Under the pieces are notes generated by a model that was given only the letters and a program-made list of their open reading frames with translations, was not told where the DNA came from and searched no databases. Of a DNA stretch of 64,000 bases, positions 14,093 to 60,241 are shown piece after piece (the stretch's first letter is position 1; every line of letters begins with the position of its first letter). Origin of the DNA: an archaeon (GTDB taxonomy: Archaea; Thermoproteota; Nitrososphaeria; Nitrososphaerales; JACAEJ01); assembly GCA_024256265.1 (NCBI GenBank), contig JACGUK010000003.1, positions 62,001 through 126,000 of the forward strand, given 5' to 3'. A program made the position numbers and the translations under genes.

Positions 14093-14097
14093 TGTAA

Positions 14098-16191: not shown

Positions 16192-16195
16192 TGGC

Positions 16196-17743
16196 ATGAT
16201 AGTAGAAGATAAGAGCTTCATACTTTTGCAATCAATAATCTTACCAGCTGCCTTCTCTGTTTTAGCTTTAGCCCTTGGCAAGCGCTTTAAGGAGAAGACT
16301 GGTTGGATATCATCGATAGTCTTACTTTACTCCTCTATTCTTATAGGCTATGTCCAATGGATGCTATTCTCAGAGCAAGGATTAGAAGCTATAGAGGCAT
16401 CTTACTCCTGGCTTCCTAATATTGGAACTTTGAGTCTGGGTAGCTTCACTTTAAGGGCTGATGGTCTCAGTACACCTATAGCTCTCATAATAGCCATACT
16501 TTGTACTCTCATATCAATATACTCAATAAAATATATGGAGCATGAGCATGCTCTAGGTCAGTACTTTTCCCTATATCTTCTATATGCATCTGGGATGATA
16601 GGCACTGTCCTTGTTACAAACCTTGCTGCCTTCTTTCTATTCTTTGAGCTCATGTTAATACCGTCATGGGCTCTAATAGGAGTTTGGGGTACAGGGTTAA
16701 GAGAAAGAATAGCCTTCAAGTACTTCATGTTCACAGAAGCTGGAGCACTTTCACTGCTTGTTGGTATAGTTGCCACTGGCTTCATAGCAAAAACCTTCGA
16801 TATATTCAAAATATCTCAAGGAATGATAGGTGTAGATTTGGGTATTCAAATTGCTATAGTTGTAGCTATGCTACTAGGCTTATTCGTCAAGATGGCTATA
16901 TTCCCTCTTCACACATGGCTTCCAGATGCCCATGCTGAGGCTCCTACACCAATAAGCGCTCTCCTTTCACCAGCTATGATAGGGATAGGCGGGTATGCTG
17001 CAATAAGGATAGTCTACACAGGATTCCCAGCAGTTGTTGCAGCTCAAACACCACAATTTATGTTCATACTATCAGTTCTAGCCTTGATAACCATGACTTA
17101 TGGGGGATACATGGCTTTAGCTCAAGACGATATAAAAAGGCTCCTTGCATTCTCAAGCATAAGCCAGATGGGCTACATGTTATTTGGCATAGCATCAGTT
17201 TCAACCATAGGAGTTGTTGGTGCTGTATTAATTTATGTTAGTCATGGTCTAGGCAAAGCAATACTCTTCATGGTCTCAGGAGTTTTGATACATGAGTTTA
17301 AGACTAGGAGCATAAGAGATCTAGGCGGACTTGGACCAAAGATGCCTTATACTGCTGTAGCTACACTCATAGGCTTTCTTGGGCTTATGGGCTTCCCTTA
17401 TATAATAGGCTTCTGGGCTGAGCTATATGTATTCACAGGTTCTATGTACACAGCTCTTCAAGGCTTCAGCCACATTATAGAACCAAATGCAATTCGAGTG
17501 CTGATAACGTCTTTAGCTATAATTGCATCTATATTGACTGCCAGCTACGGTTTATGGACTGTTAGAAGGGTCTTCTATGGTCAGCCTACAGAGAGAACAA
17601 GGGATGCAAAAGAAGGATCGATGATAATGATCATACCTATAATGATCCTTGCTACTATTGCTCTAATATTGGGCATATACCCTGGGCTATTGGCATCTGG
17701 TGCATCAAGATATATATCCGAGCTTCTGAGCAGTATAGGTTGA
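16196..17743 (+). CDS. nuoM: Complex I antiporter-like subunit M
   Basis: 515 residues, about 14 helices. FFELMLIPSWALIGVWG, FPLHTWLPDAHAEAPTPISALLS and DDIKRLLAFSSISQMGYM are typical of NuoM. Last gene of the plus-strand arm. No subunits E, F, G and no FpoF/FpoO-like gene follow, so the electron-input partner is encoded elsewhere or the complex takes reduced ferredoxin directly. Confidence 0.9.
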   Translation: MIVEDKSFILLQSIILPAAFSVLALALGKRFKEKTGWISSIVLLYSSILIGYVQWMLFSEQGLEAIEASYSWLPNIGTLSLGSFTLRADGLSTPIALIIAILCTLISIYSIKYMEHEHALGQYFSLYLLYASGMIGTVLVTNLAAFFLFFELMLIPSWALIGVWGTGLRERIAFKYFMFTEAGALSLLVGIVATGFIAKTFDIFKISQGMIGVDLGIQIAIVVAMLLGLFVKMAIFPLHTWLPDAHAEAPTPISALLSPAMIGIGGYAAIRIVYTGFPAVVAAQTPQFMFILSVLALITMTYGGYMALAQDDIKRLLAFSSISQMGYMLFGIASVSTIGVVGAVLIYVSHGLGKAILFMVSGVLIHEFKTRSIRDLGGLGPKMPYTAVATLIGFLGLMGFPYIIGFWAELYVFTGSMYTALQGFSHIIEPNAIRVLITSLAIIASILTASYGLWTVRRVFYGQPTERTRDAKEGSMIMIIPIMILATIALILGIYPGLLASGASRYISELLSSIG

Positions 17744-17773: not shown

Positions 17774-17865
17774 AGCCGGGGGCAGGATTCGAACCCGCAT
17801 AAAGCGGGTCTCTGTATATATTAATTTATCTGCAGCCCGCCGCCTAACCACTCGGCCACCCCGGC
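17774..17865 (-). tRNA. tRNA-Cys(GCA) with a 20-nt intron
   Basis: Acceptor GCCGGGG pairs CCCCGGC, discriminator U as expected for tRNA-Cys. D arm GCC-GAGTGGTTA-GGC, anticodon stem GCGGG/CCCGC, loop CTGCAGA with anticodon GCA, T arm GCGGG-TTCGAAT-CCTGC. An intron (17810-17829) sits between positions 37 and 38, the standard archaeal site; CTG of the loop pairs CAG in the intron. Mature length 72 nt. It lies convergent to the complex I operon and close to SepRS, the enzyme that loads this tRNA with phosphoserine. Confidence 0.93.
17810..17829 (-). other. tRNA-Cys intron at 37/38
   Basis: Twenty nt, very AT-rich, at the canonical position one base 3' of the anticodon. The anticodon-loop CTG pairs with CAG near the intron's 3' end, fitting a bulge-helix-bulge. 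Confidence 0.8.
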
Positions 17866-18465: not shown

Positions 18466-19959
18466 TTGGCTATAGAATCAAGGAGAATTGAAAAGCATCC
18501 CCTCTCAGAAGTTATAGAGAAGATTAGGCATACTTATCTTGATCTAGGCTTTATAGAGGTCTATAATCCTATCTTCATTGAGGAAAAAGAAATTTATAAG
18601 CAATGGGGTAATGAAGCTCCAACGATACTAGATAGATGCTTCTACCTTGCAACTCTTCCTAGACCTGATATAGGGATCAGCCAAGATAAGATTAGTCTTT
18701 TTAAAAAAATCGGGTTTGTCCTTGAACAAGAGAAGAAGATTGAATTACAGAAAGTCTTCCATAATTATAAGAAAGGCTTATTCGATGGAGAGGATTTGAT
18801 CTCTAAAATTGCTGAGGCTCTTTCAATAGATGAGGATAAAGCTTCGATTATCTTAAGTGCTTTTCCTGAGCTAAAGCAAAAAAGAGCTACTGCCACGGAT
18901 CTTACTCTTAGGAGCCATATGACATCAGGATGGTTCTTAACCTTAAAAGAATTTAAAAATGAAGAGCTCCCAATAAAGCTCTTTTCTATAGACTTATGCT
19001 TTCGTAGAGAGCAAACTCTAGATGCAACTCATCTTAGATGCTACCACTCAGCCTCAAGTGTTATAATGAATGAGAAATTAAGCTTAGAAGATGCAAAGCG
19101 TTTTGCTGAAGGATTATTGAAGCCTTTTGGAATAGAAGAGATAAAGTATGTGAAAAAGAAAAGAAGTGCAAGTTATTATGAGAAGGACACTGAAACTGAA
19201 GTCTTTGTAAAAACAAAAAGCCAAGGGAATTGGATAGAAGTTGCAGACTTCGGGATTTATAGTAATGATGTTCTCAAAAAGTATAGGATCTTACATCCAG
19301 TCTTGAACTTGGGTCTTGGTGCAGAGAGGTTGGCAATGGCTATCTATGGCTTCTCAGACGTTCGTAAATTGGTCTACCCTCAATTCTATGCTCAGCTAGA
19401 GCTATCTGATCTAGAGATTGCTTCTTCAATTAATATAGATAAGACCCCTAGAACTGAGGATGGGAAGAAGATACAGATTGCTATCATAAAAGCTTGTGAG
19501 ATGTATGGAGATACTCCTAGCCCCTTCGAGTATACTGTATATGATGGTCAAATACTTGGAAAGAGGGTAATAGTAAAACTAATTCAGAGTGAAGAAGGGA
19601 AGAGACTTTTAGGACGAGCAGCCTCCAATGAAATAGTAGTTTACAATGGAGACATCTTAGGGATTCCAAAAGAAGATAAAGACCTCTCAAAAAGAGAATT
19701 GATAAAGGAAGCAAGAGAGAACGGAGTACCAGTTGGGATAAGGTACATAGATTCTTTAGCCGCATTTGTAGCTAATGGAATAGAGGAAGCCATAGAATCA
19801 GGGAAAAAAGAGTTCGTTATGAAGAGGGCTATGACTAGCACATCAGGAGAGCTTAACATCAAAGTGAAAGAAGATGCATTAAAATTCATTACAAGCAAGA
19901 ATAAAAGGATTGACTTAAGAGGGCCTGTCTTTATGATGGTAAAAGCCCAGATAGAATGA
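18466..19959 (+). CDS. sepS: O-phosphoseryl-tRNA(Cys) ligase (SepRS)
   Basis: 497 residues, class II synthetase. Family stretches: RATATDLTLRSHMTSGWF (motif 2 area, about 144-161), CFRREQTLDATHLRCYHSAS, and LNLGLGAERLAMAIYG (motif 3, about 284-299). SepRS charges tRNA-Cys with phosphoserine, which SepCysS then converts to Cys-tRNA. The pathway replaces or backs up CysRS in methanogens and some other archaea. Start is TTG 18466 with GGAAAGG upstream. SepCysS is not in the window. tRNA-Cys lies 600 nt away. Confidence 0.9.
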   Translation: MAIESRRIEKHPLSEVIEKIRHTYLDLGFIEVYNPIFIEEKEIYKQWGNEAPTILDRCFYLATLPRPDIGISQDKISLFKKIGFVLEQEKKIELQKVFHNYKKGLFDGEDLISKIAEALSIDEDKASIILSAFPELKQKRATATDLTLRSHMTSGWFLTLKEFKNEELPIKLFSIDLCFRREQTLDATHLRCYHSASSVIMNEKLSLEDAKRFAEGLLKPFGIEEIKYVKKKRSASYYEKDTETEVFVKTKSQGNWIEVADFGIYSNDVLKKYRILHPVLNLGLGAERLAMAIYGFSDVRKLVYPQFYAQLELSDLEIASSINIDKTPRTEDGKKIQIAIIKACEMYGDTPSPFEYTVYDGQILGKRVIVKLIQSEEGKRLLGRAASNEIVVYNGDILGIPKEDKDLSKRELIKEARENGVPVGIRYIDSLAAFVANGIEEAIESGKKEFVMKRAMTSTSGELNIKVKEDALKFITSKNKRIDLRGPVFMMVKAQIE

Positions 19960-44654: not shown

Positions 44655-45656
44655 ATGATATACGATAGCATACTCGATCTGATCGGCAATACCCCGATGG
44701 TTAGAATCAACTCTCTAAACCCTAACAAGAACCTAGAGATTTACATCAAGCTTGAGAAGTTCAACGCTGCAGGCTCAGTAAAGGATAGGATAGCCAAATA
44801 CATGATTGAATATGCAGAAAAGGATGGGTTGCTGACAAAGGATAAGATCGTCATAGAGCCGACAAGTGGTAATACAGGCATTGGATTGGCACTTGTATGC
44901 AGAGTCAAGGGATATGATTGCATACTTGTCATGCCTGAGACAATGACTATGGAGAGGAGGCAGATCCTCATCGCACTTGGTGCGAAGATCATTCTGACTG
45001 ATGGTAAAAAGGGGATGGATGGCGCTGAAGACTACGCCAAGCGGCTCGTGGAGAAGTATCCACAAAAATACTTTATGCCCAACCAATTTGACAATAAATA
45101 CAACGTGCTGGCACACTATGAGACCACAGCAGAGGAAATCTGGAGGGACACGAATGGCAGAATCACGCACTTCGTAGTTGGGCTTGGAACCTCAGGCACA
45201 TCTGTAGGCGTATCTAAGAGGCTCAAAGAGTATAATCCGGATGTGAAGATCATTGGAGTTGCACCAGACCCATCAACACCGATCCAAGGCTTGAAGAACT
45301 TTGACATACAGTATGTTCCACAGATATGGGAGCCTGAGAGGGTCGATGAATTACATTACGTGACAATTAAGGATGCAGAGGAGTCTGCTCGACTTCTATC
45401 CCTTGGTGAGGGCATCTTCATCGGACCGAGCTCAGGTGCCATCTTCTATGTGGCTTTGAAGAAAGCCAAGGAGATTGATAGCGGTGTAATGGTTGTCATG
45501 GCACCTGATGGTGGTGAGAAATATCTGAGCACATCTCTATGTGAACCTGTCCAATGCCTAGAATGTGCCCAGAGATTCGGAATCAAATGTTCTTACTTTG
45601 ATGGAAGGCCTATCATCGAAGCGAAAGCTCTTCCTCCTAAGCAAGTGTCTCCGTAA
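44655..45656 (+). CDS. cysK: Cysteine synthase-family PLP enzyme with a cysteine-rich tail
   Basis: 333 residues. GNTPMVRI at 11-18, lysine in AAGSVKDRIAKY (about residue 43, Schiff base), PTSGNTGIG near 69, GLGTSGTSVG near 173. The standard fold ends near residue 295; the last 38 residues contain CEPVQCLECAQRFGIKC, a CxxxxCxxC...C set that could hold a metal or Fe-S cluster. Codons look richer in C and G than neighbours. Own TATA (TTATATTTAAAT near 44600). Flanked by the 44561/45841 repeat, so possibly acquired. Acceptor substrate (OAS, phosphoserine or homocysteine-type) is not decided. Confidence 0.88.
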   Translation: MIYDSILDLIGNTPMVRINSLNPNKNLEIYIKLEKFNAAGSVKDRIAKYMIEYAEKDGLLTKDKIVIEPTSGNTGIGLALVCRVKGYDCILVMPETMTMERRQILIALGAKIILTDGKKGMDGAEDYAKRLVEKYPQKYFMPNQFDNKYNVLAHYETTAEEIWRDTNGRITHFVVGLGTSGTSVGVSKRLKEYNPDVKIIGVAPDPSTPIQGLKNFDIQYVPQIWEPERVDELHYVTIKDAEESARLLSLGEGIFIGPSSGAIFYVALKKAKEIDSGVMVVMAPDGGEKYLSTSLCEPVQCLECAQRFGIKCSYFDGRPIIEAKALPPKQVSP

Positions 45657-45912: not shown

Positions 45913-46971
45913 TTACTTCTTCCAGTATGATGGTGTTCCAAACTCTATTGTTGCATTTACGAATGCTTTTATGTGCTCTGTAGGAGTTTCTAACCAAAAG
46001 TCGCAACCTGGAGAGACGATATCTACACCATCATCTATAACCTTCTTTACAAACTCCCTTATCCTCTCTGGAGGTCCAAAGTGTATCACACCGTGGGCTG
46101 GAGTATTGCCCATCAATGCAACCTTTGGATTGACCTTCTCGACGATCTTCTTAGCTTCTTTGATGGATGTTCTCTCATCCACAGCAATACCTTTTGCTCC
46201 ACATTCGGCCATCCTATCTACTATGAGCAATGCAGAACCACATATGTTAAGAATCGTGGGTAATTTTATATGGTTGATGAGCTCCTTTAAATAAGGCTTT
46301 AAAAATTCGTCCCATTGCTTTGGTGAGACGTTATCATTTGAACCACCCATCTCGTGGAATGTTATTATGTCAGCCCCTGCATCTTCAAAAAGCTTTAAGA
46401 GCTCTTTATAAATCGGCATGGATGCTTTAATAAATCCATGATTTTTTTCTGGATTTGTCCTTACCATCTTTAGAAAAACGATGCTATCCACCACGTAACT
46501 ACTTATGCTCGTAAAGGGAGGGACTATGTATACATTGATCGGTACCTTGCCCTCAAATTCTTTCTTCAAGATTTTAATTGCGCCTATAATGGCAGGTACT
46601 CTGCCTGCAGTAGAGACATCTTTAGGTATCTTAATATCTGAAACATCTTTGGCATGAAAAGCCAGTGTAGATTGCAGAGATGGCCATTTTATCGTTTCTT
46701 CATGATAGTTTATGGTGGCTCCCATCAACTCTGCCTCCATAGTCATATCGAAAGGTATTGAAATGTTATCAAGATTACACAATTTATGTGCTGCAGAGCC
46801 AAGTTTCGCCATCTTTTCTGGATCTTTATGGGCTTGAGGCCAGTACGCATCATAAGCCTTCATGAAGTCTATCGTAGCCATGCTTACAGAGTTTACACAG
46901 GGAATTCTATCTAAAGACTCTTTGTTTCCATGTAAAGCTTCCATGACTCTATCATACGAGTTCATTTTCAT
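45913..46971 (-). CDS. UroD/MtaA-family methyltransferase, paralogue 1
   Basis: 352 residues, TIM barrel of the uroporphyrinogen-decarboxylase superfamily branch that includes corrinoid methyltransferases (MtaA, MtbA, MtoB-type). Opens with YDRVMEALHGNKESLDRIPC and carries DAYWPQAHKDPEKMAKL as its sister proteins do. The zinc motif reads ILNICGSA, with asparagine where family members have histidine; the later ligand SPGCDFW is present. Would transfer methyl between a substrate, Co(I)-corrinoid or thiol carrier. Divergent from the corrinoid gene. Confidence 0.82.
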   Translation of the reverse strand: MKMNSYDRVMEALHGNKESLDRIPCVNSVSMATIDFMKAYDAYWPQAHKDPEKMAKLGSAAHKLCNLDNISIPFDMTMEAELMGATINYHEETIKWPSLQSTLAFHAKDVSDIKIPKDVSTAGRVPAIIGAIKILKKEFEGKVPINVYIVPPFTSISSYVVDSIVFLKMVRTNPEKNHGFIKASMPIYKELLKLFEDAGADIITFHEMGGSNDNVSPKQWDEFLKPYLKELINHIKLPTILNICGSALLIVDRMAECGAKGIAVDERTSIKEAKKIVEKVNPKVALMGNTPAHGVIHFGPPERIREFVKKVIDDGVDIVSPGCDFWLETPTEHIKAFVNATIEFGTPSYWKK

Positions 46972-46998
46972 CGTAAGACGCCATGTATTTGACCTATT

Positions 46999-47020
46999 TT
47001 AAGATATCTTAATATCTTAA
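46999..47020. promoter_or_regulatory. Palindrome upstream of methyltransferase 1
   Basis: TTAAGATATCTTAA (46999-47012) is a perfect 14-base palindrome, extended by an overlapping half site to 47020. It sits 28-49 nt before the minus-strand ATG at 46971, over or beside its TATA region. Candidate operator, but AT-rich sequence makes chance symmetry possible. Confidence 0.4.
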
Positions 47021-47216
47021 ATTCTTTTGCAACTGAAAGGTAATTTTAGCCTCTTGGAGAATTTCCTTTAATTTAAAGACTTTTCTTGGGCATTTTCTTT
47101 CACATCTCAAGCATAAAAAGAATCTTTGAGGTATTATAAGATGCATATATAAAAAATAAGATGTTATTACTTTAAATAGCAAATTTAATATACAACTTTT
47201 TCTCCCCCCTAAAGAC

Positions 47217-47909
47217 ATGATGAGCGAAAAAGAGAAAATTCTGAACAAACTTGCTACAGCTGTTGTCTTGGGCGATGAGAAGATGGCTGAAGAAGTGGCA
47301 AAAGAGGCTATTAGTGCTGGCTTAAAACCTTATGAAGCGATAATAAATGGACTGGCTGAAGGGATGAAAGTAGTTGGCGAAAAGTACGAATGCAAAGAAT
47401 ACTTCTTGCCAGAGGTTCTTCTATCAGCTGATGCAATGTATGCAGGACTGAACGTTTTACTCCCACTCATACCTACGTCTGAGAAAGGTGCAAAGGGGAC
47501 TATAGTCATTGGTGTAGTAGAAGGAGACGTTCATGACATAGGCAAGAACATAGTGAAGGCAATGCTCACAGCATCAGGATATGAAGTATTGGACTTAGGA
47601 AGGGATGTTCCAACGAAAGAGTTCGTAGATTCAGCAAAGAAAGGAGGAGCTCAGGTAATTGCTATGTCAACTCTAATGACACCTACACTTATGTCGATGA
47701 AGTCTGTTGAAGACAAGCTAAAGGAAGAAGGGATGAAAGACAAGGTCAGGACAATCATAGGCGGTGGATCAGTCACAGATGAATGGAGATCAAAGATAGG
47801 ATCAGACGCTTACGGAAAAGACGCTATGGAAGCAGTTGATAAAGTGAAGGTGCTGATCGGCCAGATCATGGAAGCCGTTAAAAAGATGAAAGAAGAGAAG
47901 AAGTTATAG
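47217..47909 (+). CDS. Corrinoid (B12-binding) methyl-carrier protein
   Basis: 230 residues, MtaC/MtbC/MtoC type. Helical cap (1-90, with FLPEVLLSADAMYAG) and a Rossmann B12 domain (95-225) with GDVHDIGKN at about 100-108, the DxHxxG motif whose histidine binds cobalt, then GYEVLDLGRDVP and IIGGGSVTD. Accepts a methyl group from a donor-specific methyltransferase and passes it on. Only corrinoid protein in the window, shared by three methyltransferases. TATA-like TTTAATATAC lies near 47188. Confidence 0.93.
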   Translation: MMSEKEKILNKLATAVVLGDEKMAEEVAKEAISAGLKPYEAIINGLAEGMKVVGEKYECKEYFLPEVLLSADAMYAGLNVLLPLIPTSEKGAKGTIVIGVVEGDVHDIGKNIVKAMLTASGYEVLDLGRDVPTKEFVDSAKKGGAQVIAMSTLMTPTLMSMKSVEDKLKEEGMKDKVRTIIGGGSVTDEWRSKIGSDAYGKDAMEAVDKVKVLIGQIMEAVKKMKEEKKL

Positions 47910-48050
47910 TAAAACTCGGAGCGAATCTGAAACTTACTCCAAAATTGTCTTTATCAAAAGCGCAAAAAGCCCATTAACGTGCCAAACCCTAGACACTGTC
48001 CAATGGATGAAAGTATAGCGACCTTTATTTTTTATTATGGAAAGAAATAA

Positions 48051-49076
48051 TCAACTTCTTGATCCAAACCTCTTAGCTGTTTCAACCATAGCTCTTATGT
48101 TAGCGATTGGAGTTGAAGGGACGAAACCACAACTCGGTTCAACTATATCAACGCCAGCTTCAATAGCCTTCTTTACTTCAGCTTTGATTTCATCAGGTAA
48201 GCCGAATAATAATGTGAGTTTTGAGCTTACATTGCCTAAAATCTTTACATCGCCTACAAGAGGTTTGATCTTAGCAACATCCACATTCTCTTCAACACTT
48301 ATCCCATTATAGCCACACTCTGCCATATCGGAGATTATGGGCTCAGTTTTTCCACATATATGTAAAAGCTTTATACCTCCTAGATTATCAGCCACTTTAG
48401 TTAATGCAGGCATAGCAAACTGCTTGAATGTATCAGGTTTTATTTGATCAGGAGAGGCAACAGGATCGCTTACTTGTACTATATCAGAACCAGCTCTATA
48501 CTGGGCTTTACCATATTCTATAATGAAATCTGTTGCAAAATCAACAAACGGTCTTACATAGTCACGCTCTTTTATAGTCCACATCAAGAGCTTCTCTGTA
48601 CCAACTAGCAAGCTGGCAAGAGTTAGAGGCCCCATAATAAGACTTGATATTGGTAAAAAGTCACCAACTCTCTCCCTAACTATCCTTATAGCCTTTAATA
48701 CAACTGGGATTCTGCCCAATTCAAGTATGTTATCAGGCATCTTAAGTTCTTCAGGATTTTTATAAGGCTGATCTATAATCCAAGGAATCGATTCAATTCC
48801 TCCAAACTTCACTTTACATCCTAGAGCTTCAGCCTCTACCACAAAATCGAAGGGGATTCTTACACATTCAATTTTTCCTAATTCATAACTCGCTATAGCT
48901 AATCTAGCCATCTTTTCAGGATCTTTATGAGCCTCCGGCCAGAAGACTCTTGTAACATGCTGCATCTCAGTTGTTACTGTTGCTCCACAACCTGCGAGGG
49001 ATGTAACTGGTAATCTATCCAATTTTCCTCCCATCAATGCTACAAATACTCTCGTCTTAGGACTGAACTTTTTCAT
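48051..49076 (-). CDS. UroD/MtaA-family methyltransferase, paralogue 2
   Basis: 341 residues. Starts with KTRVFVALMGGKLDRLPV; FWPEAHKDPEKMARLAIASYELGKIECVRIPFD follows. Zinc motif LLHICGKTEP (histidine and cysteine intact) and EPSCGF near the end. Closest in look to MtaA/MtbA-type enzymes that move methyl from corrinoid to a thiol, but that distinction needs phylogeny. Convergent with the corrinoid gene. TATA-like element near 49110. Confidence 0.85.
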   Translation of the reverse strand: MKKFSPKTRVFVALMGGKLDRLPVTSLAGCGATVTTEMQHVTRVFWPEAHKDPEKMARLAIASYELGKIECVRIPFDFVVEAEALGCKVKFGGIESIPWIIDQPYKNPEELKMPDNILELGRIPVVLKAIRIVRERVGDFLPISSLIMGPLTLASLLVGTEKLLMWTIKERDYVRPFVDFATDFIIEYGKAQYRAGSDIVQVSDPVASPDQIKPDTFKQFAMPALTKVADNLGGIKLLHICGKTEPIISDMAECGYNGISVEENVDVAKIKPLVGDVKILGNVSSKLTLLFGLPDEIKAEVKKAIEAGVDIVEPSCGFVPSTPIANIRAMVETAKRFGSRS

Positions 49077-49222
49077 CTTTACACACTTGCTATGGGGCTT
49101 AATGACAATTCTTTATAAATTATGCCACTTTAATGAGATTCATCTAAAGCAGATTAGAATCTTATGAATAATTCTGGATTGATTAATCCTCTCAAATATG
49201 GTAAGATCGTAATGACTGGAAA

Positions 49223-49237
49223 AGGTTTTTAAAACCT
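49223..49237. promoter_or_regulatory. Palindromic TATA region of methyltransferase 3
   Basis: AGGTTTT-T-AAAACCT, perfect seven-base arms, centred about 32 nt before ATG 49262. Contains TTTTTAAAA, so it may be the TATA box itself, an overlapping operator, or both. Confidence 0.4.
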
Positions 49238-49261
49238 CGGTTTTAATAAAAGGGGTGATTA

Positions 49262-50371
49262 ATGATGACATACAAAACTGTACCTCAGGATAAGATGACA
49301 CCTTATGAAAGGATAATGGCCGTCCTTGCAGGAAAAAAGGAAACAATCGATCGGCTTCCAGCCTTTAGTTGCATTACTACTTACACGATACATGGTATGG
49401 AAATCTTTGATGCATATTGGCCGGAAGCTCACAAAAATCCAGAAAAGATGGCTAAGTTGGGCGCAGCTCTTCATGAGCTTACTGGCTTAGAAAACGTCGA
49501 GGTACCATTTGAACTAACCCTCGAGGCCGAGGCACTTGGAATTGAACTAGAATTCTTTGAGGGCAAGATAAAGTGGCCTTCAGTCAGAGGGTATTGGGTT
49601 AAGAAGGTAGAAGACCTTAAGATCCCAGAAAGACCAGAGGAGATGAGAGAAAGGGGAAGGGTTCCTGTTGTCTGTGAAGCAATTAAAATTCTAAAGAAAA
49701 GATACGGGGAGAAAGTTCCAGTACTTGCCAATATAGACTTCCCATACCAGGCTATTGGTGGTTATATAGTTGATACTTCCACATGGTACAAATACATGAG
49801 GAGCGAACCTGAACAAGCTCATAGATTTATGAGTGTGCTTACGCCACTCTTCACTGAGGTTGCTATTGCATACTTGGAGGCAGGTGCAGATGTGGTCACC
49901 TATAGAGAGGAGGCCTCTTCACTCGCTAATATTCACCCAAAGACTTTCCGTGAATTTGTTATGCCTTATCTTAAGGATTCGATAGCTCATGCAAAAAAGT
50001 ATGGCCGTGTAATTCTTCATTGTTGTGGTGAGTTGTGGTCACCAAGTGTTGAGAATGTGAGTGGACTTATCGAATGTGACCCTGATGCCATCACGGTCGA
50101 GGAAGCTACACCAATGATTAGAGTAAGGGAAATCGCCAATAAGCTAAAAGGTCCATGGTACCCAGTAGGTGGGAATTTGAGTGCTTTCGAGGTCTTGTTC
50201 AAGGGACCTATTGAAAAAATAAGGGATAGAATCAAGAAAGTCATAGAAGACGGTGTTGATATGCCTATGGCTGGCTGTGACATCTGGATGGAGACCCCTA
50301 GTGAACATATGAAAGCATTCGTAGATGCCGTAATCGAATTTGGAACTCCGCCGCCGTGGCAGAGGGGCTGA
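49262..50371 (+). CDS. UroD/MtaA-family methyltransferase, paralogue 3
   Basis: 369 residues. YERIMAVLAGKKETIDRLPAFSC near the start, DAYWPEAHKNPEKMAKLGAALHELTGLENVEVPFE, zinc motif ILHCCGELW and MAGCDIW. Similar to paralogue 1 over the whole length (same TPSEHMKAFVDAVIEFGTP ending) but with the histidine kept. RBS AGGGGTGATT. A 78-codon gene follows 26 nt later. Confidence 0.85.
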   Translation: MMTYKTVPQDKMTPYERIMAVLAGKKETIDRLPAFSCITTYTIHGMEIFDAYWPEAHKNPEKMAKLGAALHELTGLENVEVPFELTLEAEALGIELEFFEGKIKWPSVRGYWVKKVEDLKIPERPEEMRERGRVPVVCEAIKILKKRYGEKVPVLANIDFPYQAIGGYIVDTSTWYKYMRSEPEQAHRFMSVLTPLFTEVAIAYLEAGADVVTYREEASSLANIHPKTFREFVMPYLKDSIAHAKKYGRVILHCCGELWSPSVENVSGLIECDPDAITVEEATPMIRVREIANKLKGPWYPVGGNLSAFEVLFKGPIEKIRDRIKKVIEDGVDMPMAGCDIWMETPSEHMKAFVDAVIEFGTPPPWQRG

Positions 50372-50397
50372 GCAAAGTTTAAGGTAGGTGTCTTAAA

Positions 50398-50634
50398 ATG
50401 GGCTATCCATTACAGATGAAGGAGTATAAGATTCAAAGTAAGATAGGAGATAGCTTAAAAGTTAGAATCGAAAAAGTAGGCGTAGGAGAGAGAGCAGACA
50501 TTCTCTATAGAATAATTCGTGGCGAAGATAGACGAAACATAGATCCAGATAAAGTTGTCCTCTATAAAGAGGAGTTAGAGAAGCTCATCGAGTTTCTGAA
50601 AGAGGATTTCCTCAAAAAGGAGTTCCCAGAATAA
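50398..50634 (+). CDS. Small charged protein downstream of methyltransferase 3
   Basis: 78 residues, no known family. Beta-rich start (EYKIQSKIGDSLKVRIEKVGVG) and a charged helical end (KEELEKLIEFLKEDFLKKE). AAGGTAGGTG upstream fits a ribosome site, so it is likely cotranscribed with the methyltransferase. Confidence 0.6.
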   Translation: MGYPLQMKEYKIQSKIGDSLKVRIEKVGVGERADILYRIIRGEDRRNIDPDKVVLYKEELEKLIEFLKEDFLKKEFPE

Positions 50635-50664
50635 GGCTAGCCATACAACATCTCTCTAATGAGA

Positions 50665-50715
50665 AGATAAGAAAAACCATCAAAAGAGTCATTGATGAAA
50701 GTACACTGATGTAGT
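50665..50715 (+). pseudogene. Possible relic of a fourth methyltransferase
   Basis: An in-frame run reads EKIRKTIKRVIDESTLM then stop, resembling EKIRDRIKKVIEDGVDM of paralogue 3. Seventeen codons only, with no wider homology seen by eye. Confidence 0.25.
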
Positions 50716-50864
50716 TTGCCTGAATGTGATTACTTGCTCGTAGATGATAACACTAAAGTATTTTATTTTTGATTAAGTGTAATCGTTATCTTAGTATATT
50801 TATTAGATGATTTGCCCATAATTTATGAACTATATTTTAAGAATCTTATAGAGAGTTAGCGAAA

Positions 50865-50880
50865 CCTTTATTTAATATAT
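50865..50880 (+). promoter_or_regulatory. TATA box for the corrinoid activator
   Basis: CCTTTATTTAATATAT, centred about 31 nt before ATG 50904; gives a very short leader and supports that ATG over TTG 50895. Confidence 0.5.
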
Positions 50881-50903
50881 CTGTTTAGGGCTTTTTGATC
50901 GCA

Positions 50904-52859
50904 ATGTCTTCAAATCCAGAGAAATTTGAAGTAATCTTTCTCCCTCATGGAAGGCGAGATTTCTTTTCATCCGGCATTACTGCGATGGACGCGGCTAAGG
51001 AATTGGCTGTAGACATATCTTCAGTCTGTGGAGGAAAGGGAACATGTGGTAAATGTAAAGTTAGAATCGATGAAGGGATAGAGTCGCTAGGACCTTTAAA
51101 GCCTGCTGAGTCAAAACATCTTACAAAAGACTTGATCGATGAAGGCTATAGATTAGCATGCTTAGTAAAGGTTAGGGCACCTTTAAAAATCTACGTTCCT
51201 GAAATAAGCAGAGTAGGAAAGCAAAGATTACAAACTGAGGGACTTGAGGTACCTGTAACACCAAATCCATTGGTCAGAAAATACTTCGTGAAGATGCCAA
51301 TACCTACATTGCATGATGTAAGATCTGATGAGGATAGACTTCTAGACACATTAAAGGAGCAGCATAACATTGACCCCAATAAATTGATAATCGATTACGA
51401 GATAGCGAACGATTTCCCTAAAATAATAAGAGCGGCAAACTGGGAAGTAACAACTGTAGCATGGAACAATCGTATCATAGCTATTGAGCCTGGGAACACT
51501 TCTGATAGATGCTTTGGATTCGCTGTTGACATAGGTAGTACGAAGCTGGCTGGCTTTTTGATGGACTTGAATGCAGGTAAGGTTGTATCACTTGCTGCGA
51601 GAATGAACCCTCAAATTCCAATGGGTGAGGACATTCTATCAAGGATAACTTTCGCCATGATGCATGGTTTAGAGGGCCAGGATAAGCTTCAAAAAGCAGT
51701 TGTAGGGGGAATCAATGAAATGATTGAAGAGTGCTGTCAAAAGGCTAACGTGAAGACTGAAGAAATCTATGATCTTACCTTTGTAGGCAATACAGCTATG
51801 CAGATGTTCTTTCTCAAATTATGGCCTCAATACACAGCTTTCTCTCCATATCCTCCTGTGTTGAGGCGTGGAGTTGATGTCCCTTCAACAAAGATAGGTC
51901 TAAAGTCCTATAGAAATGCAAATGTTCACTACCTTCCTGTTATAGGCGGATTCGTTGGGGCTGACAGCGTGGCAGATATTATGGCTGTAGAGATATTCAA
52001 ATCAGATAAAATCATAATGGATATAGATATAGGCACGAACACGGAGATAGCTATAGGTAACAAAGACTTAGTTATGATGGACTCATGCGCATCTGGCCCA
52101 GCCTTTGAAGGTATGGAGATCAAGTTCGGTATGAGGGCTGCAACAGGTGCTATTGAGAAGATAACCATCGACCCATCTAGCTTAGAACTCAACTCTAGGA
52201 CTATAGGAGATGCGCCAGCAGTCGGAATATGTGGTTCAGGGTTAGTCGATATTCCAGCTGAGCTTCTAAAATCAGGATTAATAGATATTAGAGGAAGATT
52301 CGTCGAGAGGATGGCAAAAGAGACTGATAGGCTGAGAAAAGGACCCACTGGACTGTGGGAGTATGTAGTAGCTTGGAAAGAAGAAACTGCTGCTGGTGTT
52401 GATGTAGTTTTCACACATGCAGACTTAAGAGAGTTGCAGAAAGCAAAGGCAGCCATGCACTGTGGTTCAGAGCTCATGATGAGAGCTATGGGCTACACCG
52501 AGAAGGATATATCTGATCTGTATGTAGCTGGTGCCTTTGGAAACTACATAGATCCTGAGAATGCTAGAACAATAGGTATGTACCCTGAGTTTCCTACTGA
52601 ACATATTCACTTCGTCGGCAATACTGCAGGAACAGGTTCAAGAATGTGCTTGATCTCAAAAGAGATGAGAGATTATGCTGGAGAGATAGCGACAAAAGTA
52701 AAGTACTATGAGTTAGCTGTCGAAAAGGACTTCCAGAATGAATATATTAGGGCAACTTATCTTCCATACATCGACCTTAACAAGTATCCTATCACAAAAG
52801 ATCTGCTACTAAGACTTGGTCGCATCGATGAACAAGGAAAATTCATCTACCCAGAATAA
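50904..52859 (+). CDS. RACo-type reductive activator of corrinoid proteins
   Basis: About 651 residues. N-terminal 2Fe-2S ferredoxin domain (VCGGKGTCGKCKVRI near 36-50, fourth cysteine in RLACLVK), a linker, then an ASKHA ATPase core: GFAVDIGSTKLAG (phosphate 1, about 208), DIDIGTNTEIAIG and AGAFGNYIDPENA. RACo and MtoD-type proteins use ATP to return inactive Co(II) corrinoid to Co(I). Unlike RamA there is no C-terminal 4Fe-4S pair. Its presence shows that the corrinoid protein 3 kb away is a true methyl carrier. Confidence 0.92.
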   Translation: MSSNPEKFEVIFLPHGRRDFFSSGITAMDAAKELAVDISSVCGGKGTCGKCKVRIDEGIESLGPLKPAESKHLTKDLIDEGYRLACLVKVRAPLKIYVPEISRVGKQRLQTEGLEVPVTPNPLVRKYFVKMPIPTLHDVRSDEDRLLDTLKEQHNIDPNKLIIDYEIANDFPKIIRAANWEVTTVAWNNRIIAIEPGNTSDRCFGFAVDIGSTKLAGFLMDLNAGKVVSLAARMNPQIPMGEDILSRITFAMMHGLEGQDKLQKAVVGGINEMIEECCQKANVKTEEIYDLTFVGNTAMQMFFLKLWPQYTAFSPYPPVLRRGVDVPSTKIGLKSYRNANVHYLPVIGGFVGADSVADIMAVEIFKSDKIIMDIDIGTNTEIAIGNKDLVMMDSCASGPAFEGMEIKFGMRAATGAIEKITIDPSSLELNSRTIGDAPAVGICGSGLVDIPAELLKSGLIDIRGRFVERMAKETDRLRKGPTGLWEYVVAWKEETAAGVDVVFTHADLRELQKAKAAMHCGSELMMRAMGYTEKDISDLYVAGAFGNYIDPENARTIGMYPEFPTEHIHFVGNTAGTGSRMCLISKEMRDYAGEIATKVKYYELAVEKDFQNEYIRATYLPYIDLNKYPITKDLLLRLGRIDEQGKFIYPE

Positions 52860-52916
52860 ACAACGAAGATTGTTAATGAATATAATTGTACCCTAACCCT
52901 AGGGTACGATATTTTC

Positions 52917-54263
52917 TTATAATTGTAGCTTAGCTATTTTAACAGCCATCTTCACGACTTCAACAGCATTTTTTCCAAGAAGTGTGATCATAGGCTCCTT
53001 TCCCCAATCTCCTTTATGATATATTATATCTGGCACCTTGCCTATCTTTTTTACAGCCTGCTCAGCACCCCAAATCATGCTCATGCCTTCTATCTCTTTA
53101 GTCTCAGGAGGCTCTTTCTTTCTATCATAAAAAGAAACGATCAATCCTTGCTCTTTACAAGCCTCTATAAGCCTCTCTGAGTACTTTATGTTCATACCGG
53201 CTCTTATTGAACTATCATACTTCATAACTGTCAGAACGGTTCTTGCTATATGTGATGATGCACCAAATTCAGGACATGATGAAGCTTTTGCACTCTTTCC
53301 AATTCTAACAATACGGCCTGGTATTGCTGCTACATCTATAATGCTATCTGCTAAAGGTAGAGCCATGGCAACATTGGTCTGAGATTCAGGGATCAATTCT
53401 GAGAATTCTTGATGAGATTCTAATATTGCTACTGCTTCTTTGATATTTTCTATCACTTGATACTTCTCAGCCTCATTGTAAAGATGAGCCATAGGATTTA
53501 CAGGTCCACAACCATGACCTATATTAAATCCAAACCTTATAGCTTTAGTTATAAAATCCTTAGCATGCTTTACTGCATCGACTATGCTCTTCCCTTTAGC
53601 CAGTTCTGCTGCAATGGCTGAGGCAAAGCAACAACCTGCCCCATGAGTTGTCTTAGTGCTAATCCTATTTTCTTCAAAGATCTTAAAATCACCATCAAAA
53701 TAAAGAAGATCTAAAGCCTTTTTATCAGAAAAAGCATGACCGCCTTTTATTACTACAGCTTTGGGTCCAAGCTCAGAGATCTTCTTTGCAGCTTCTTTTG
53801 CATCATCCATGGTCTTTATCTTAATTCCTGATATCGTCTCTGCTTCAATAGAGTTGGGCGTTACTATTGTTGCCAAGGGGAAAAGAAATTTGATCAAAGC
53901 ACTTTTAGCATCTAATTCAAGAAGAGTTGCTCCACTCTTTGTAGCCATTACAGGGTCTATCACTAAAGGGAAATTTTGCTTTCTTATTTCATCAGATACA
54001 ACTTCTATTATCTCCTTTTTATGGAGCATGCCTGTCTTTACCACATCTATACCAATATCGCTAACCAAAGCATCTATCTGAGCTTTTATCATGTTTATTG
54101 GTAAATCATGAATCTTTTTGAGTTCTATAGTATTTTGTGCAGTTACAGAAGTTATAACTGTCATACCATAAACGCCTAAAGCTGAGAAGGTCTTCAGATC
54201 AGCCTGTATTCCAGCTCCGCCGTCAGGGTCTGAGCCAGCTATGCTTAAAACTCTTGGAATCAT
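52917..54263 (-). CDS. thiDN: ThiD-ThiN fusion, thiamine phosphate synthesis
   Basis: 448 residues. ThiD kinase (1-260): SIAGSDPDGGAGIQADLK, PVMATKSGATLL and KTTHGAGCCFASAIAAE. ThiN thiamine-phosphate synthase (about 285-448): FGASSHIARTVLTVMKYD and DIIYHKGDWGKEPMI. Phosphorylates HMP-P and joins it to the thiazole. The fusion is the normal archaeal arrangement. No TPP riboswitch is visible upstream. Confidence 0.93.
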   Translation of the reverse strand: MIPRVLSIAGSDPDGGAGIQADLKTFSALGVYGMTVITSVTAQNTIELKKIHDLPINMIKAQIDALVSDIGIDVVKTGMLHKKEIIEVVSDEIRKQNFPLVIDPVMATKSGATLLELDAKSALIKFLFPLATIVTPNSIEAETISGIKIKTMDDAKEAAKKISELGPKAVVIKGGHAFSDKKALDLLYFDGDFKIFEENRISTKTTHGAGCCFASAIAAELAKGKSIVDAVKHAKDFITKAIRFGFNIGHGCGPVNPMAHLYNEAEKYQVIENIKEAVAILESHQEFSELIPESQTNVAMALPLADSIIDVAAIPGRIVRIGKSAKASSCPEFGASSHIARTVLTVMKYDSSIRAGMNIKYSERLIEACKEQGLIVSFYDRKKEPPETKEIEGMSMIWGAEQAVKKIGKVPDIIYHKGDWGKEPMITLLGKNAVEVVKMAVKIAKLQL

Positions 54264-54496: not shown

Positions 54497-56128
54497 ATGC
54501 CAAAATGGATCTTTGTTACTGGAGGCGTGATGTCAGGCTTAGGTAAGGGTATCGTAACTGCCTCTATAGCAAGACTCCTCACGATGACAGGGTTAAAGGT
54601 CTCAGCCGCAAAGATCGATCCATACTTAAATGTGGATGCTGGCACACTAAACCCTATAGCTCATGGAGAAGTATTCGTCTGTGATGATGGTTCTGAATGT
54701 GATATGGATTTAGGGCATTATGAGAGGTTTCTTGATAAGCCCTTAACACATTATCATAACATTACGAGTGGTCAGGTTTACTTACAAGTTATAAAGGATG
54801 AAAGGAAGGGAAACTATCTTGGACAATGTGTCCAGATAATTCCTCATCTAACGAATGAAATAAAGAGGCGCATAAGGCTCGTTGCTGAAATAGATAATGC
54901 TGAATGTGTGGTTATAGAGTGTGGTGGAACTGTTGGCGATATAGAGGGTTTACCTTTCTTAGAGGCTTTAAGGCAGATGAGGCTTGAGGAAGGGTCTTCC
55001 AACACTCTATTCGTTCATGTAACTTTAGTTCCAGCCTTAGATGTTGTCGGTGAGCAGAAGACCAAGCCTACTCAGCATAGCGTCCAAGAGTTGAGAAGGA
55101 TAGGCATTCAGCCTGATATAATCGTAGCCAGAAGTGAGAAGCCTTTAACAAAGGAGGCGAAGAACAAGATAGCCCTTTTCACCAGCGTAGACTTTAAGAG
55201 CGTAATTTCTAACCCTGACGTTGAATCTATATACATCGTGCCCGAGAATCTTGCCTCTGAAGGAATCGCCTCAACAGTATGTGAGAAGCTTCAGCTGAGC
55301 AATAAAGAGATTCATTGGGGAGAATGGAAGAAAGTATCTGAATCTTTCATCAGAAATAAAGAGGAAGTTCGAATAGCTATGGTCGGCAAATATACAGCAC
55401 TTACAGACAGTTACGTCAGCATAAATCATGCATTGGCTCATGCAGGGGCTCAGTTAGGCTTGAAGGTAAAGGTGAGATGGATTGAGGCTGAAGATTTTGA
55501 GAATCAAGGAGAGTCTTTTGAAGAATTAGAAAAGTATCATGGTGTACTTGTACCAGGAGGTTTTGGAAAAAGAGGAAGTGAGGGGAAGATAATTGTGGCA
55601 AACTATTGTAGAGAGAAAGGAATACCTTATCTAGGCTTATGCTTTGGCTTTCAATTGGCTTTAGTATCCTTTGCAAGGCATGCTTGTGGTTTAGAAAATG
55701 CCAACTCAACAGAGCTCGATCCTAATACTCCTCATCCTGTTATAGACCTATTGCCCGAGCAGAGAGATATAAAGGACTTAGGAGCTACAATGAGGTTAGG
55801 CGGTCATGAAATAAACTTGGTTGAAGGGACTCTTGCTTTTAGATTGTATCAAAGAAAGGTCATAAGAGAAAGGCATAGGCACAGATATGAATTTAATCAG
55901 AACTATAAGGAGACCTTTGAGAGAAATGGGATGGTATTCTCAGGGTTTAGTGATGAAGGCAAAAGAGTTGAAATAATGGAGATTCAAAATCATCCCTTCT
56001 ATCTAGCCACTCAGTACCATGCTGAGTTCATCAGCAGACCTGGCAAGGCAGAGCCTGTATTCTTAGGATTATTGGAAGCATCTCTGAAAAGGAAGTATGC
56101 TATTCATCCTATGGTTGCTCATGCTTAA
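54497..56128 (+). CDS. pyrG: CTP synthase
   Basis: 543 residues. FVTGGVMSGLGKGI (P-loop, 6-19), DPYLNVDAGTLNP, then a glutamine amidotransferase domain with GLCFGFQLA (cysteine near 378) and QYHAEFISRPGKAEP. Converts UTP to CTP. AT-rich promoter directly upstream. Confidence 0.97.
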   Translation: MPKWIFVTGGVMSGLGKGIVTASIARLLTMTGLKVSAAKIDPYLNVDAGTLNPIAHGEVFVCDDGSECDMDLGHYERFLDKPLTHYHNITSGQVYLQVIKDERKGNYLGQCVQIIPHLTNEIKRRIRLVAEIDNAECVVIECGGTVGDIEGLPFLEALRQMRLEEGSSNTLFVHVTLVPALDVVGEQKTKPTQHSVQELRRIGIQPDIIVARSEKPLTKEAKNKIALFTSVDFKSVISNPDVESIYIVPENLASEGIASTVCEKLQLSNKEIHWGEWKKVSESFIRNKEEVRIAMVGKYTALTDSYVSINHALAHAGAQLGLKVKVRWIEAEDFENQGESFEELEKYHGVLVPGGFGKRGSEGKIIVANYCREKGIPYLGLCFGFQLALVSFARHACGLENANSTELDPNTPHPVIDLLPEQRDIKDLGATMRLGGHEINLVEGTLAFRLYQRKVIRERHRHRYEFNQNYKETFERNGMVFSGFSDEGKRVEIMEIQNHPFYLATQYHAEFISRPGKAEPVFLGLLEASLKRKYAIHPMVAHA

Positions 56129-59086: not shown

Positions 59087-60241
59087 ATGTCCATGAATTA
59101 TAAAGGATTAGAAAAATATACTGTTTTGAGATTAATTAAAGATTATTTGAAAGAGGATTTGACCTATAATTCTGGAAGAATTTTTGGCTCTATGTGCACT
59201 TCCCCTCATTCCTTTGCGAAGAAAATCTTCATCAAAGCCATAGAAAAGAATCTTGGAGATGCAGGTCTCTTTCCCGGGACGATGAAGCTTGAGCAGGAGG
59301 CTATAAGAATGATAGGCTCATTGCTCTCAAAACAAGATGCATCAGGGTACATAGTCTCAGGAGGAACTGAAGCGAACTTGATGGCTATGTGGGCTGCAAG
59401 GAATTTAGCTAAAAAAGATAGACCTGAAGTCATTGCTCCAAAATCAGCTCATTTTTCATTTGATAAAGCTGCAGACTTACTTGGGCTAAAGTTAGTAAAA
59501 ATTGAACTTGATGAGAATTTTCAAGTTAACACAAAAGCTGTGAAGGAGGCTATCAATAGAAATACAATAGCCATAGTAGGTATGGCAGGATCGACCGAAT
59601 TGGGGGTTGTAGACCCTATATCAGAGCTATCAGAGATAGCTTTGGATAATGGTATATATCTTCATATAGATGCATCTTTTGGGGGCTTTGTATTACCATT
59701 CTTGAGGGATATTGGTTATAATATTCCAGAATTTGACTTCAATTTAAAAGGAGTTTGCTCTATTACCATCGATTCTCATAAGATGGGACTTGCCCCTATA
59801 CCAGCCGGTGGGATACTATTCAGAGATTCAGAGTCTATAAAATCTGTGAGCATAAGAGTTCCGTATCTCTCAGGAGGAGAAATAACTCAAGGTACGATTT
59901 TAGGCACAAGGTCTGGTGCATCAGCAGTAGCTGTGTGGGCTCTCCTCAAACATATGGGTAGGGAAGGTTACCAGAAAGTGGTGAAGAGGTGCATGGATTT
60001 AACGAATATGATCGTAAGAAGGGTTAAAAAGTCGAAGAAGGTTTATTTGATCATAAATCCTATTATGAACATAGTGGGTTTAGCCTCTCATTCTTTGGAG
60101 CCTAAGCAATTGGCAGATGGATTAAGGAGAAGAGGATGGGCTGTCTCATTCACTCCAACTCATATAAGGTTGGTAATAATGCCTCATATTAAGAAGAAGC
60201 ATATTATAAGATTCTTGTCAGATCTGGAAGAATTGGCTTAA
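59087..60241 (+). CDS. mfnA: PLP decarboxylase MfnA-type (aspartate/tyrosine)
   Basis: 384 residues. GRIFGSMCTSPH, SGGTEANLMAMWAAR, HIDASFGGFVLPF and the PLP lysine in IDSHKMGLAP (about 232). The family decarboxylates L-aspartate to beta-alanine for CoA and L-tyrosine for methanofuran. In this CoA operon the aspartate role is most likely. Confidence 0.92.
   Translation: MSMNYKGLEKYTVLRLIKDYLKEDLTYNSGRIFGSMCTSPHSFAKKIFIKAIEKNLGDAGLFPGTMKLEQEAIRMIGSLLSKQDASGYIVSGGTEANLMAMWAARNLAKKDRPEVIAPKSAHFSFDKAADLLGLKLVKIELDENFQVNTKAVKEAINRNTIAIVGMAGSTELGVVDPISELSEIALDNGIYLHIDASFGGFVLPFLRDIGYNIPEFDFNLKGVCSITIDSHKMGLAPIPAGGILFRDSESIKSVSIRVPYLSGGEITQGTILGTRSGASAVAVWALLKHMGREGYQKVVKRCMDLTNMIVRRVKKSKKVYLIINPIMNIVGLASHSLEPKQLADGLRRRGWAVSFTPTHIRLVIMPHIKKKHIIRFLSDLEELA

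Follow-up and report, generated by a model that had tools for sequence, protein, structure and literature searches.

The window analyzed here, a 64,000-nucleotide stretch of archaeal DNA, carries five genes for corrinoid-dependent methyl transfer between positions 45913 and 52859. MT1 (45913..46971, minus strand) is a corrinoid methyltransferase of the UroD/MtaA superfamily with an altered zinc site (Asn242, Cys244, and Cys323, with His206); CP (47217..47909, plus strand) is a methyl-carrying corrinoid protein of the MtbC/MtgC/MttC type with PF02607 and PF02310 domains; MTA (48051..49076, minus strand) is an MtaA-type methylcorrinoid:coenzyme M (CoM) methyltransferase, as judged from its PF01208 domain, MtaA matches, and tree clade; MT3 (49262..50371, plus strand) is a paralogue of MT1 in PF01208 whose zinc site is the usual His-Cys-Cys; and the last gene (50895..52859, plus strand, TTG start) encodes a RACo/RACE-type ATP-dependent reductive activator of CP with an N-terminal [2Fe-2S] domain. 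All of these open reading frames were found where the first-pass annotation had placed three UroD-superfamily methyltransferases, a corrinoid protein, and RACo, and its description of a single carrier within an island for corrinoid methyl transfer, with the donor left unspecified, is upheld. Since MT1 and MTA lie on the minus strand and CP, MT3, and RACo on the plus strand, the island is not one operon. An Rfam scan of the island returned no RNA element at gathering scores, and its promoter- and terminator-like sites were not in excess over shuffled sequences. A Pfam scan of the five island proteins and five flanking proteins detected no MtrH-, MtaB-, or MttB-type domain, confirming an absence already noted at first pass, and recognized no transporter or donor-processing gene among the island proteins. 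A cysteine synthase-like PLP enzyme (44655..45656, plus strand; TIGR01136, 354 bits) adjoins MT1 and is outside the conserved cluster; no such gene stands beside MT1 in the sister loci that extend past it. The locus is fixed by two conserved neighbors, ThiD-ThiN (52917..54263, minus strand; PF08543 and PF10120) and a CTP synthase that we take from its sequence to be PyrG (54497..56128, plus strand), with homologues in relatives L001 to L005 at 73 to 77% and 84 to 93% identity, respectively.

All three methyltransferases belong to PF01208 (225 bits for MT1, 271 for MTA, and 209 for MT3), in keeping with the earlier count of three UroD-type methyltransferases, one of which is more precisely of the MtaA type. 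True uroporphyrinogen decarboxylases are ruled out, as the three proteins score 56, 72, and 48 bits with the hemE model TIGR01464, far below its cutoff of 303, and the methionine synthase domains PF02574 and PF01717, the latter a profile to which the MesC kind is invisible, were not found in them. Domains, hemE scores, and the tree all speak against the pair of assignments that the first pass had named as fatal to its own reading, namely, true UroD proteins and a methionine synthase fragment as the corrinoid protein. All three methyltransferases exceed the cutoff of PRK06252, the methylcobalamin:CoM methyltransferase subfamily (377 bits for MTA and 255.3 for MT3, which also scores 216.1 with TIGR01463), and hence MT1, MT3, or both could be thiol-methylating rather than donor enzymes. 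MTA matches Methanosarcina mazei MtaA (4ay7) at 304 bits and the MtaA model NF040654 at 374.7 bits against a cutoff of 400. CP reaches 227.8 bits with TIGR02370 (cutoff, 215.3), has the trimethylamine corrinoid protein 7xcn as its best PDB match (9.6e-57), and contains the motif DVHDIG, which we assume to count toward its identity as a corrinoid carrier. The activator matches RACo_C_ter (297 bits), Raco_middle, RACo_linker, and Fer2, as well as PDB entry 3zyy (2.6e-121).

The flanks and the cluster match "Candidatus Methylarchaeales" and sister MAGs within Nitrososphaeria, and the island's host is probably an uncultured near relative of methanogens. Seven sister loci, found through MT1/MT3 matches and therefore selected for the presence of these genes, have CP, MT3, and RACo intact in every case and MT1 intact in six. 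In each of the seven related loci examined, PyrG and ThiD-ThiN again stand beside the cluster, indicating that this is not a chance neighborhood. MTA is missing from all seven sister clusters, which keep CP, MT3, and RACo, so only two methyltransferases belong to the conserved unit. The three-to-one ratio of methyltransferases to carrier first described holds for the window but is partly an accident of lineage. MTA-like genes adjoin the cluster in three Bathyarchaeota loci, and all six related loci titled Bathyarchaeota have a pterin methyltransferase of the MtrH type, either inside the cluster or adjoining it. Locus L009 has the single-strand run MTA-MT3-MtrH-MT1-CP-RACo, and in L012, MT3 and RACo are lacking and MT1 and MtrH occur with an incomplete CP. 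In the Methylarchaeales clade, MtrH is encoded away from the cluster in six of seven genomes, and CdhD is present in all seven. The choice posed at first pass, between several donors and one donor enzyme plus a pterin or thiol enzyme, is thereby half answered: Bathyarchaeota have a separate MtrH as their pterin enzyme, and what remains for MT1 and MT3 is the donor side or the thiol side. McrA and McrB were found in G001, G003, and G004, and McrB was found in G207. The cluster is kept in G002 and G005, where neither McrA nor McrB was found, and G190, in which McrB was not found, has a gutted MT1; hence, the cluster shows no tie to methanogenesis. The occurrence of MT1 in Syntrophoarchaeum and Alkanophaga prompted the idea of alkane oxidation via Acr, which was given up since, of 18 genomes carrying MT1-type loci, only 5 show an McrA match.

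In the trees, MT1, MT3, and MTA all group on the branch of the CoM methyltransferases, separate from the MtoB-type rows. MTA and the MtaA references share a clade of 20 rows (support, 92/97), among them rows passing NF040654, and the MT3 clade (15 rows; 99.9/100) is joined to the MT1 rows with support of 100/100, apart from MtaA and MtbA rows. A second tree was computed after removal of 12 of 112 long or distant rows, including the three of the MtoB type. MT3 is nested within MT1, but the AU test does not reject monophyly of MT1 (p-AU 0.337), so that the Asn/His change in the zinc site could have gone in either direction. Of the relationships to MtoB, MtaA, and MtbA considered at first pass, MTA groups with MtaA, MT1 and MT3 form their own clade, and none groups with the MtoB type. 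A UroD protein adjoining a corrinoid protein at L158, for which the methylthiol:CoM methyltransferase label MtsA is a guess, falls outside the MT1/MT3 clade.

The aligned zinc-site residues are Asn-Cys-Cys in MT1 and His-Cys-Cys in MT3 and MTA, with MTA showing His-X-Cys ... Cys. All three proteins keep the Cys-Cys pair, whereas the three MtoB-type rows lack it and have Leu/Phe-Glu-Val at these positions. In MT1, Asn242 replaces the zinc His and a new His (His206) appears after the neighboring strand, a feature found in 124 of 125 Asn rows versus 0 of 90 His rows; the metal site is unusual and apparently rearranged. In the available text of one preprint (PMC10418091), His-Cys-Cys and Cys-Cys zinc sites are assigned to S/Se chemistry, as opposed to O-demethylases, the MT1 proteins of which have carboxylate or missing zinc ligands. 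This ligand rule rests on that single preprint, and the Asn-Cys-Cys of MT1 is no plain fit to it.

We propose, with confidence somewhat short of even, that this is a chromosomal module of the Methylarchaeales clade and that it takes methyl groups from a soft-atom donor, probably an S-methyl compound, to methanopterin and CoM. MT1 and MT3 would transfer the methyl group of such a donor to the Co(I) of CP, and RACo would rereduce oxidized CP. From methyl-CP, the methyl group would pass to tetrahydromethanopterin via a stand-alone MtrH, encoded elsewhere in the Methylarchaeales clade and within or beside the cluster in Bathyarchaeota, and on to CODH/ACS; in the window organism, it might also pass via MTA to coenzyme M, for methane. 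We infer the donor chemistry, the direction of transfer, and the separate roles of MT1 and MT3, as well as the use of MTA with CP and the presence of Mcr and MtrH in the window organism's own genome.

An mlp-like cluster with a role in S-methyl salvage is an unlikely alternative that has the gene content on its side. Type 1 mlp gene clusters (MGCs), such as that of Clostridium ljungdahlii, unite, in the available text of PMC10418091, three UroD proteins resembling MtaA with a single corrinoid protein and a bacterial-type activator; they show S/Se-type zinc sites and have no pterin enzyme. The island likewise has three UroD proteins of this sort, a corrinoid protein, and a bacterial-type Ram/RACE and no pterin methyltransferase. 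Persistence of the cluster in sister genomes where McrA/McrB was not found, the cysteine synthase adjoining MT1 in the window, and a homocysteine-biosynthesis gene adjoining MT1 in Alkanophaga (L013) would also agree with salvage. However, MT1, MT3, and MTA lie outside both mlp-type clades of bacterial rows (15 rows in one and 14 in the other, each clade with support of 100/100, the rows labeled by cluster make-up and position rather than by accession), and the trees give no support to orthology with these rows (Mlp2, Mlp3), from which MT1 also differs by its Asn-Cys-Cys site. Selenium, a typical although not obligatory trait of type 1 mlp, was looked for in the relatives, where SelD exceeds its cutoff in none of the seven clade genomes (4 of 20 overall), each of which gives weaker matches, 72 bits at most. 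As far as the preprint's available text describes them, type 1 mlp clusters have nothing equivalent to the MtrH partner seen in the Bathyarchaeota clusters. It is highly improbable that the island acts on methoxylated aromatics as an Mto/Odm/Mtv-type O-demethylase system, one of the cores suggested at first pass. The component classes are the same, Mto of Methermicoccus shengliensis comprising UroD-superfamily MT1s, a corrinoid protein, a 2Fe-2S activator, and an MtrH-type pterin enzyme (PMC8630106, available text), and according to Ou et al. (PMC9478090, available text), Methylarchaeales MtrH is nearer to the MtoA of M. shengliensis than to the MtrH of Methanosarcina. Nevertheless, MtoB-type MT1s are related at the superfamily level only: against L179:10738-11991, called MtoB-type from the make-up of its archaeal RACo-MtrH-MFS-UroD-CP cluster and not by accession, MT1 scores 41 bits and MT3 and MTA give nothing at the limit used. 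Neither sequence nor zinc site supports an MtoB-type enzyme, as Asn/His-Cys-Cys stands in the window proteins where MtoB-type rows have Leu/Phe-Glu-Val, and neither an MFS transporter nor the MtrH expected of an Mto/Odm cluster is among the island proteins. The bathyarchaeial O-demethylase MtgB shares archaeal corrinoid methyl transfer and an MtgA/MtgC pair, but in the available description, by which it was compared, it has ~300 amino acids and no homology to known MT1s, with no activator found (PMC10989822), unlike the UroD proteins and RACo of the window.

It is improbable that the island is a common MT2 hub, in which MTA, MT1, and MT3 would all act on the acceptor side (CoM or other thiols) and MtaB/MttB/MtmB-type donor enzymes encoded elsewhere would share the carrier. 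The PRK06252 scores of all three proteins, MttB-type genes adjoining the cluster in L007, L010, and L018, an MtmB-type gene near it in L009, and the methanol and methylamine genes reported for Methylarchaeales (PMC9478090, available text) would suit such a hub. Yet the MttB- or MtmB-type gene stands beside its own second corrinoid protein in L009, L010, and L018, although not in L007. Moreover, although MT1 and MT3 share the fold (4ay8) and superfamily branch of the soluble CoM methyltransferases MtaA and MtbA, their clade is separate from both (100/100), and MT1 lacks the zinc His. After this we place, as likewise improbable, a split corrinoid methionine synthase, in which MtrH would load CP from methyl-H4MPT and MT3 (or MT1) would pass the methyl group to homocysteine. 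It looked strong on domain counts, with PF02574 in none of 20 genomes (no MetH), PF01717, a profile blind to MesC, absent from all seven clade genomes, and homocysteine-biosynthesis PF01837 in six of the seven (one a fragment), and an anabolic role for the CoP-MtrH couple is left open by Loh et al. in the available text (PMC7886697). It was then weakened by MesC-like proteins, another candidate for methionine synthesis, which were matched in all seven clade genomes and in G007, G009, G010, G011, and G015, with the Ser/Gln/Asp and HxH...C residues kept in the aligned rows of five clade genomes and G010. PF01717 was silent on the control M. acetivorans, which has MesC according to the available text of Price et al. 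(PMC7857596), and on rows L167 and L168, called MesC because their His204/His206/Glu226/Cys315 coincide with or adjoin the published residues 204, 206, 225, and 314. In addition, MT1 co-occurs with PF01717 in Hadarchaeota and Jord/Freyarchaeia.

The soft-atom donor module that we favor bears on the methylotrophy of Bathyarchaeia and Methylarchaeales, which has been judged from genomes with the methyl source partly open. The Bathyarchaeia CoP-MtrH couple, compared here by description, likewise links a corrinoid protein to a stand-alone MtrH with its methyl source unidentified, and Loh et al. 2021 call its substrate-specific methyltransferases unidentified in the available text (PMC7886697); the present loci have, beyond this, one or two UroD methyltransferases and, in most cases, RACo. 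It is possible, although doubtful, that MT1/MT3, CP, and RACo, with or without MtrH, constitute an undescribed archaeal module of methylotrophy or acetogenesis that supplies the donor-side methyltransferases missing for this couple, with the ligand His of MT1 displaced to the adjacent barrel strand (Asn242 plus His206) and tuned to a donor new to UroD-type methyltransferases. The module is compact and common to the Methylarchaeales clade and Bathyarchaeota. It lends itself to assay, with five proteins, a short list of donors, and a color readout between 390 and 520 nm, which makes the donor question directly testable. The Asn/His exchange would allow zinc binding and donor choice in UroD-type methyltransferases to be tested cleanly by point mutation.

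All five genes of the island were found where the first-pass annotation had placed them, as a linked set of three UroD-superfamily (PF01208) methyltransferases, one carrier, and one activator. The related enzymes MT1 (45913-46971, minus strand) and MT3 (49262-50371, plus) and the MtaA-type MTA (48051-49076, minus) are accompanied by the corrinoid protein CP (47217-47909, plus), with both B12-binding domains, and the reductive activator RACo (50895-52859, plus), with 2Fe-2S, linker, middle, and C-terminal RACo parts. The genes occupy both strands and are spaced by 245, 141, 185, and 523 bases. MT1, MTA, and MT3 are not the true uroporphyrinogen decarboxylases that they might have been, scoring 56, 72, and 48 bits for hemE, far under the 303 cut-off. 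An 11-pair terminator-like hairpin (52885-52910) separates the convergent genes for RACo and ThiD-ThiN (ThiDN); the total of such sites in the analysis was not above shuffles.

The cluster and its flanks match Nitrososphaeria MAGs (CTP synthase PyrG, 84 to 93%; PhoU, 72 to 86%; ThiDN, 73 to 77%; MT1, 77 to 78%). PyrG and PhoU place the window closest to loci L001 and L005, and CP and MT3 place it closest to L003 (Ca. Methylarchaceae HK01M) and L004 (H03B2). In the parts of Ou et al. 2022 used here (PMC9478090), HK01M is listed, H03B1 and H03B2 are described as possibly one strain, and JZ-2-bin_220 is Ca. Methylarchaeum tengchongensis, which, by likeness of names, looks like the JZ2_bin.220247 of L001. 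The window also carries Fpo/Nuo-like genes (7997-17743), SepRS (18466-19959), MfnA (59087-60241), and a run of CoA-biosynthesis genes. A 92-base tRNA (17774-17865, minus) was detected by Rfam (51 bits) without an ARAGORN call, a disagreement for which an intron is a possible reason.

An MT1 search of 101 genomes of the order gave any match in 18, 7 of them with MT1- or MT3-grade scores above 380 bits. Since the seven loci of the clade (Ca. Methylarchaeales and sister MAGs; L001 to L005, L188, and L189) were found via MT1/MT3 matches, the presence of the cluster there is partly selection, and the informative point is its make-up: CP, MT3, and RACo occur in all seven, intact MT1 in six, and MTA in none. 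L003, L004, and L188 keep the window's order of MT1, CP, MT3, RACo, ThiDN, and PyrG; the other four place ThiDN between MT3 and RACo. What an internal deletion leaves of MT1 in L189 (genome G190; about 8150-8294) is the first codons and the final 39 residues, with MT3, CP, and RACo intact next to it; this is either a real loss or an assembly error. The MT3 of L188 (genome G207; 5550-6623) is 49% identical to that of the window, compared to 75 to 85% for the other six, and clusters with a Bathyarchaeota row in the tree; to judge from these sequences, replacement by transfer is possible.

The first-pass description of one carrier serving three methyltransferases fits the gene content of the window but not that of the clade loci. 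The closest MTA relative, from clade genome G004, is 62% identical and sited away from the cluster, with Tyr-Gly-Cys where MTA has His-Cys-Cys. MTA falls within a 20-row clade (92/97) holding rows over the MtaA equivalog cut-off, which 7 of 10 proteins scanned passed; these reference rows come from the phylum of genome G016. Given its absence from the clade loci and this location of its nearest relative, MTA seems to have been added locally, as an MtaA-type gene, in the lineage of the window, although L007, L009, and L010 have MTA-like genes next to the cluster, the L009 copy being the most distant (45%). Methylarchaeales loci L184 (5386-6429) and L187 (3852-4895) hold MTA relatives, next to what is presumably a diphthine synthase gene; the L184 copy, the one in the tree, has Tyr-Gly-Cys versus His-Cys-Cys.

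Two trees were built, of 112 rows and, after removal of long or far rows, of 100. The rows of MT1 and MT3 fall together in a single clade (n = 40; 100/100), with MT3 as a subclade (n = 15; 99.9/100). Next outward are the UroD protein of L166 with row P0212, then P0204, P0206, and P0207. L166 (3696-10762) is a compact single-UroD relative with side-by-side genes for UroD, CP, RACo, MtrH, and an NMT1-type ABC transporter; the transporter may hint at the donor. Archaeal MtoB-type rows lie far outside in the 112-row tree. MT1 matches the MtoB-type protein of L179 at 41 bits; neither MTA nor MT3 matches it within the limit applied. The island is not of the MtoB kind, and the O-demethylation listed among the first-pass options is not supported.

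The component classes and their linkage are established. As predicted from the protein families, MT1 or MT3 would transfer a donor methyl group to Co(I)-CP, yielding CH3-Co(III)-CP, from which MtrH would pass it to H4MPT and, in the window, MTA also to CoM; RACo would repair Co(II)-CP. Under the published rule on Cys-Cys zinc pairs and S/Se or aryl-ether donors (PMC10418091, in the part used here), the Cys-Cys pair points to sulfur or selenium rather than an aryl ether, and selenium is unlikely because SelD reached the cut-off in none of the seven clade genomes. Rows of the bacterial mlp type group separately, in two clades (15 and 14 rows; 100/100 each). As for methionine synthesis, PF02574 is absent from 20 of 20 genomes and PF01717 from 15, including all seven of the clade; PF01837 is present in six of the seven. 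MesC-like matches occur in 14 of the 20 genomes, all seven among them, so that the island is unnecessary for explaining methionine. Ser, Gln, Asp, and HxH...C are retained in all eight aligned MesC-like rows (five clade genomes, one Bathyarchaeota, Alkanophaga, and Syntrophoarchaeum), with Glu displaced by one gap in six. We consider an S-methyl salvage role rather improbable and favor transfer from a probable S-methyl donor through CP to methanopterin and, in the window, CoM. In L192 and L193 (G001 and G005), the MesC-like candidate methionine synthase adjoins an apparent homologue, by eye, of the window's cysteine synthase (44655-45656).

Single genes bearing on the Mcr, Mtr, and carbonyl pathways, raised at first pass as a genome-wide check, were searched for in the clade genomes. 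MtrH lies elsewhere in the genome in six of seven (252 to 274 bits; G190 has just a 25-bit match), CdhD is found in all seven, and Mcr is found in part: among the five genomes searched for McrA, in G001, G003, and G004 (920 to 925 bits) and not in G002 or G005; McrB in those three and G207 and not in G002, G005, or G190. Such a pattern points to a mixed clade or to gaps in some of the MAGs. Ou et al. (PMC9478090, in part) named mtaA, mtbA, mttB, mtbB, mtmB, and MtrH for the order and gave WLP and CODH genes for every genome in their study; "corrinoid" is absent from the main text, and the passages used here do not describe the cluster.

Beyond the clade, each of the six loci with Bathyarchaeota in the title (L007, L009 to L012, and L018) has an MtrH-type gene in or adjoining the cluster (PF02007 at 297 bits in L007), with MT1 and CP in six (CP partial in L012), RACo in five, and MT3 in four plus a fragment in L011. 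L009 encodes MTA-MT3-MtrH-MT1-CP-RACo in sequence on one strand; beside it, between two corrinoid-protein genes, lies an MtmB-family protein (14477-15865; PF05369, 346 bits), a single open frame of 462 residues without an in-frame stop for pyrrolysine. L017 of Hecatella, also under Bathyarchaeota at NCBI, has RACo and MT1, with no MtrH within the locus stretch examined; methanogenesis marker 14 (6359-7915; TIGR03285, 572 bits) directly precedes them, and its genome, G014, gave no McrA match. Syntrophoarchaeum L019 has a smaller unit of adjacent MT1, CP, and RACo, and several other lineages have MT1 without CP or RACo nearby. One such MT1, in Alkanophaga L013, adjoins a PF01837 homocysteine-biosynthesis enzyme (498 bits) and a ferredoxin-type gene (8398-9897 and 7976-8401); that of Hadarchaeota L006 adjoins an amidohydrolase, with a similar neighbor, judged by eye, in L008.

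The island represents a variant within the corrinoid methyl-transfer systems, with MT1 as its odd enzyme, and the module is common to two archaeal groups. No published description of this two-UroD archaeal module was found in mostly non-subscription literature, largely titles and abstract openings. In the portion of Loh et al. 2021 used here (PMC7886697), a CoP-MtrH couple in Bathyarchaeia is reported without identified methyltransferases, with an anabolic role regarded as possible; MT1 and MT3 are candidates to fill that gap.
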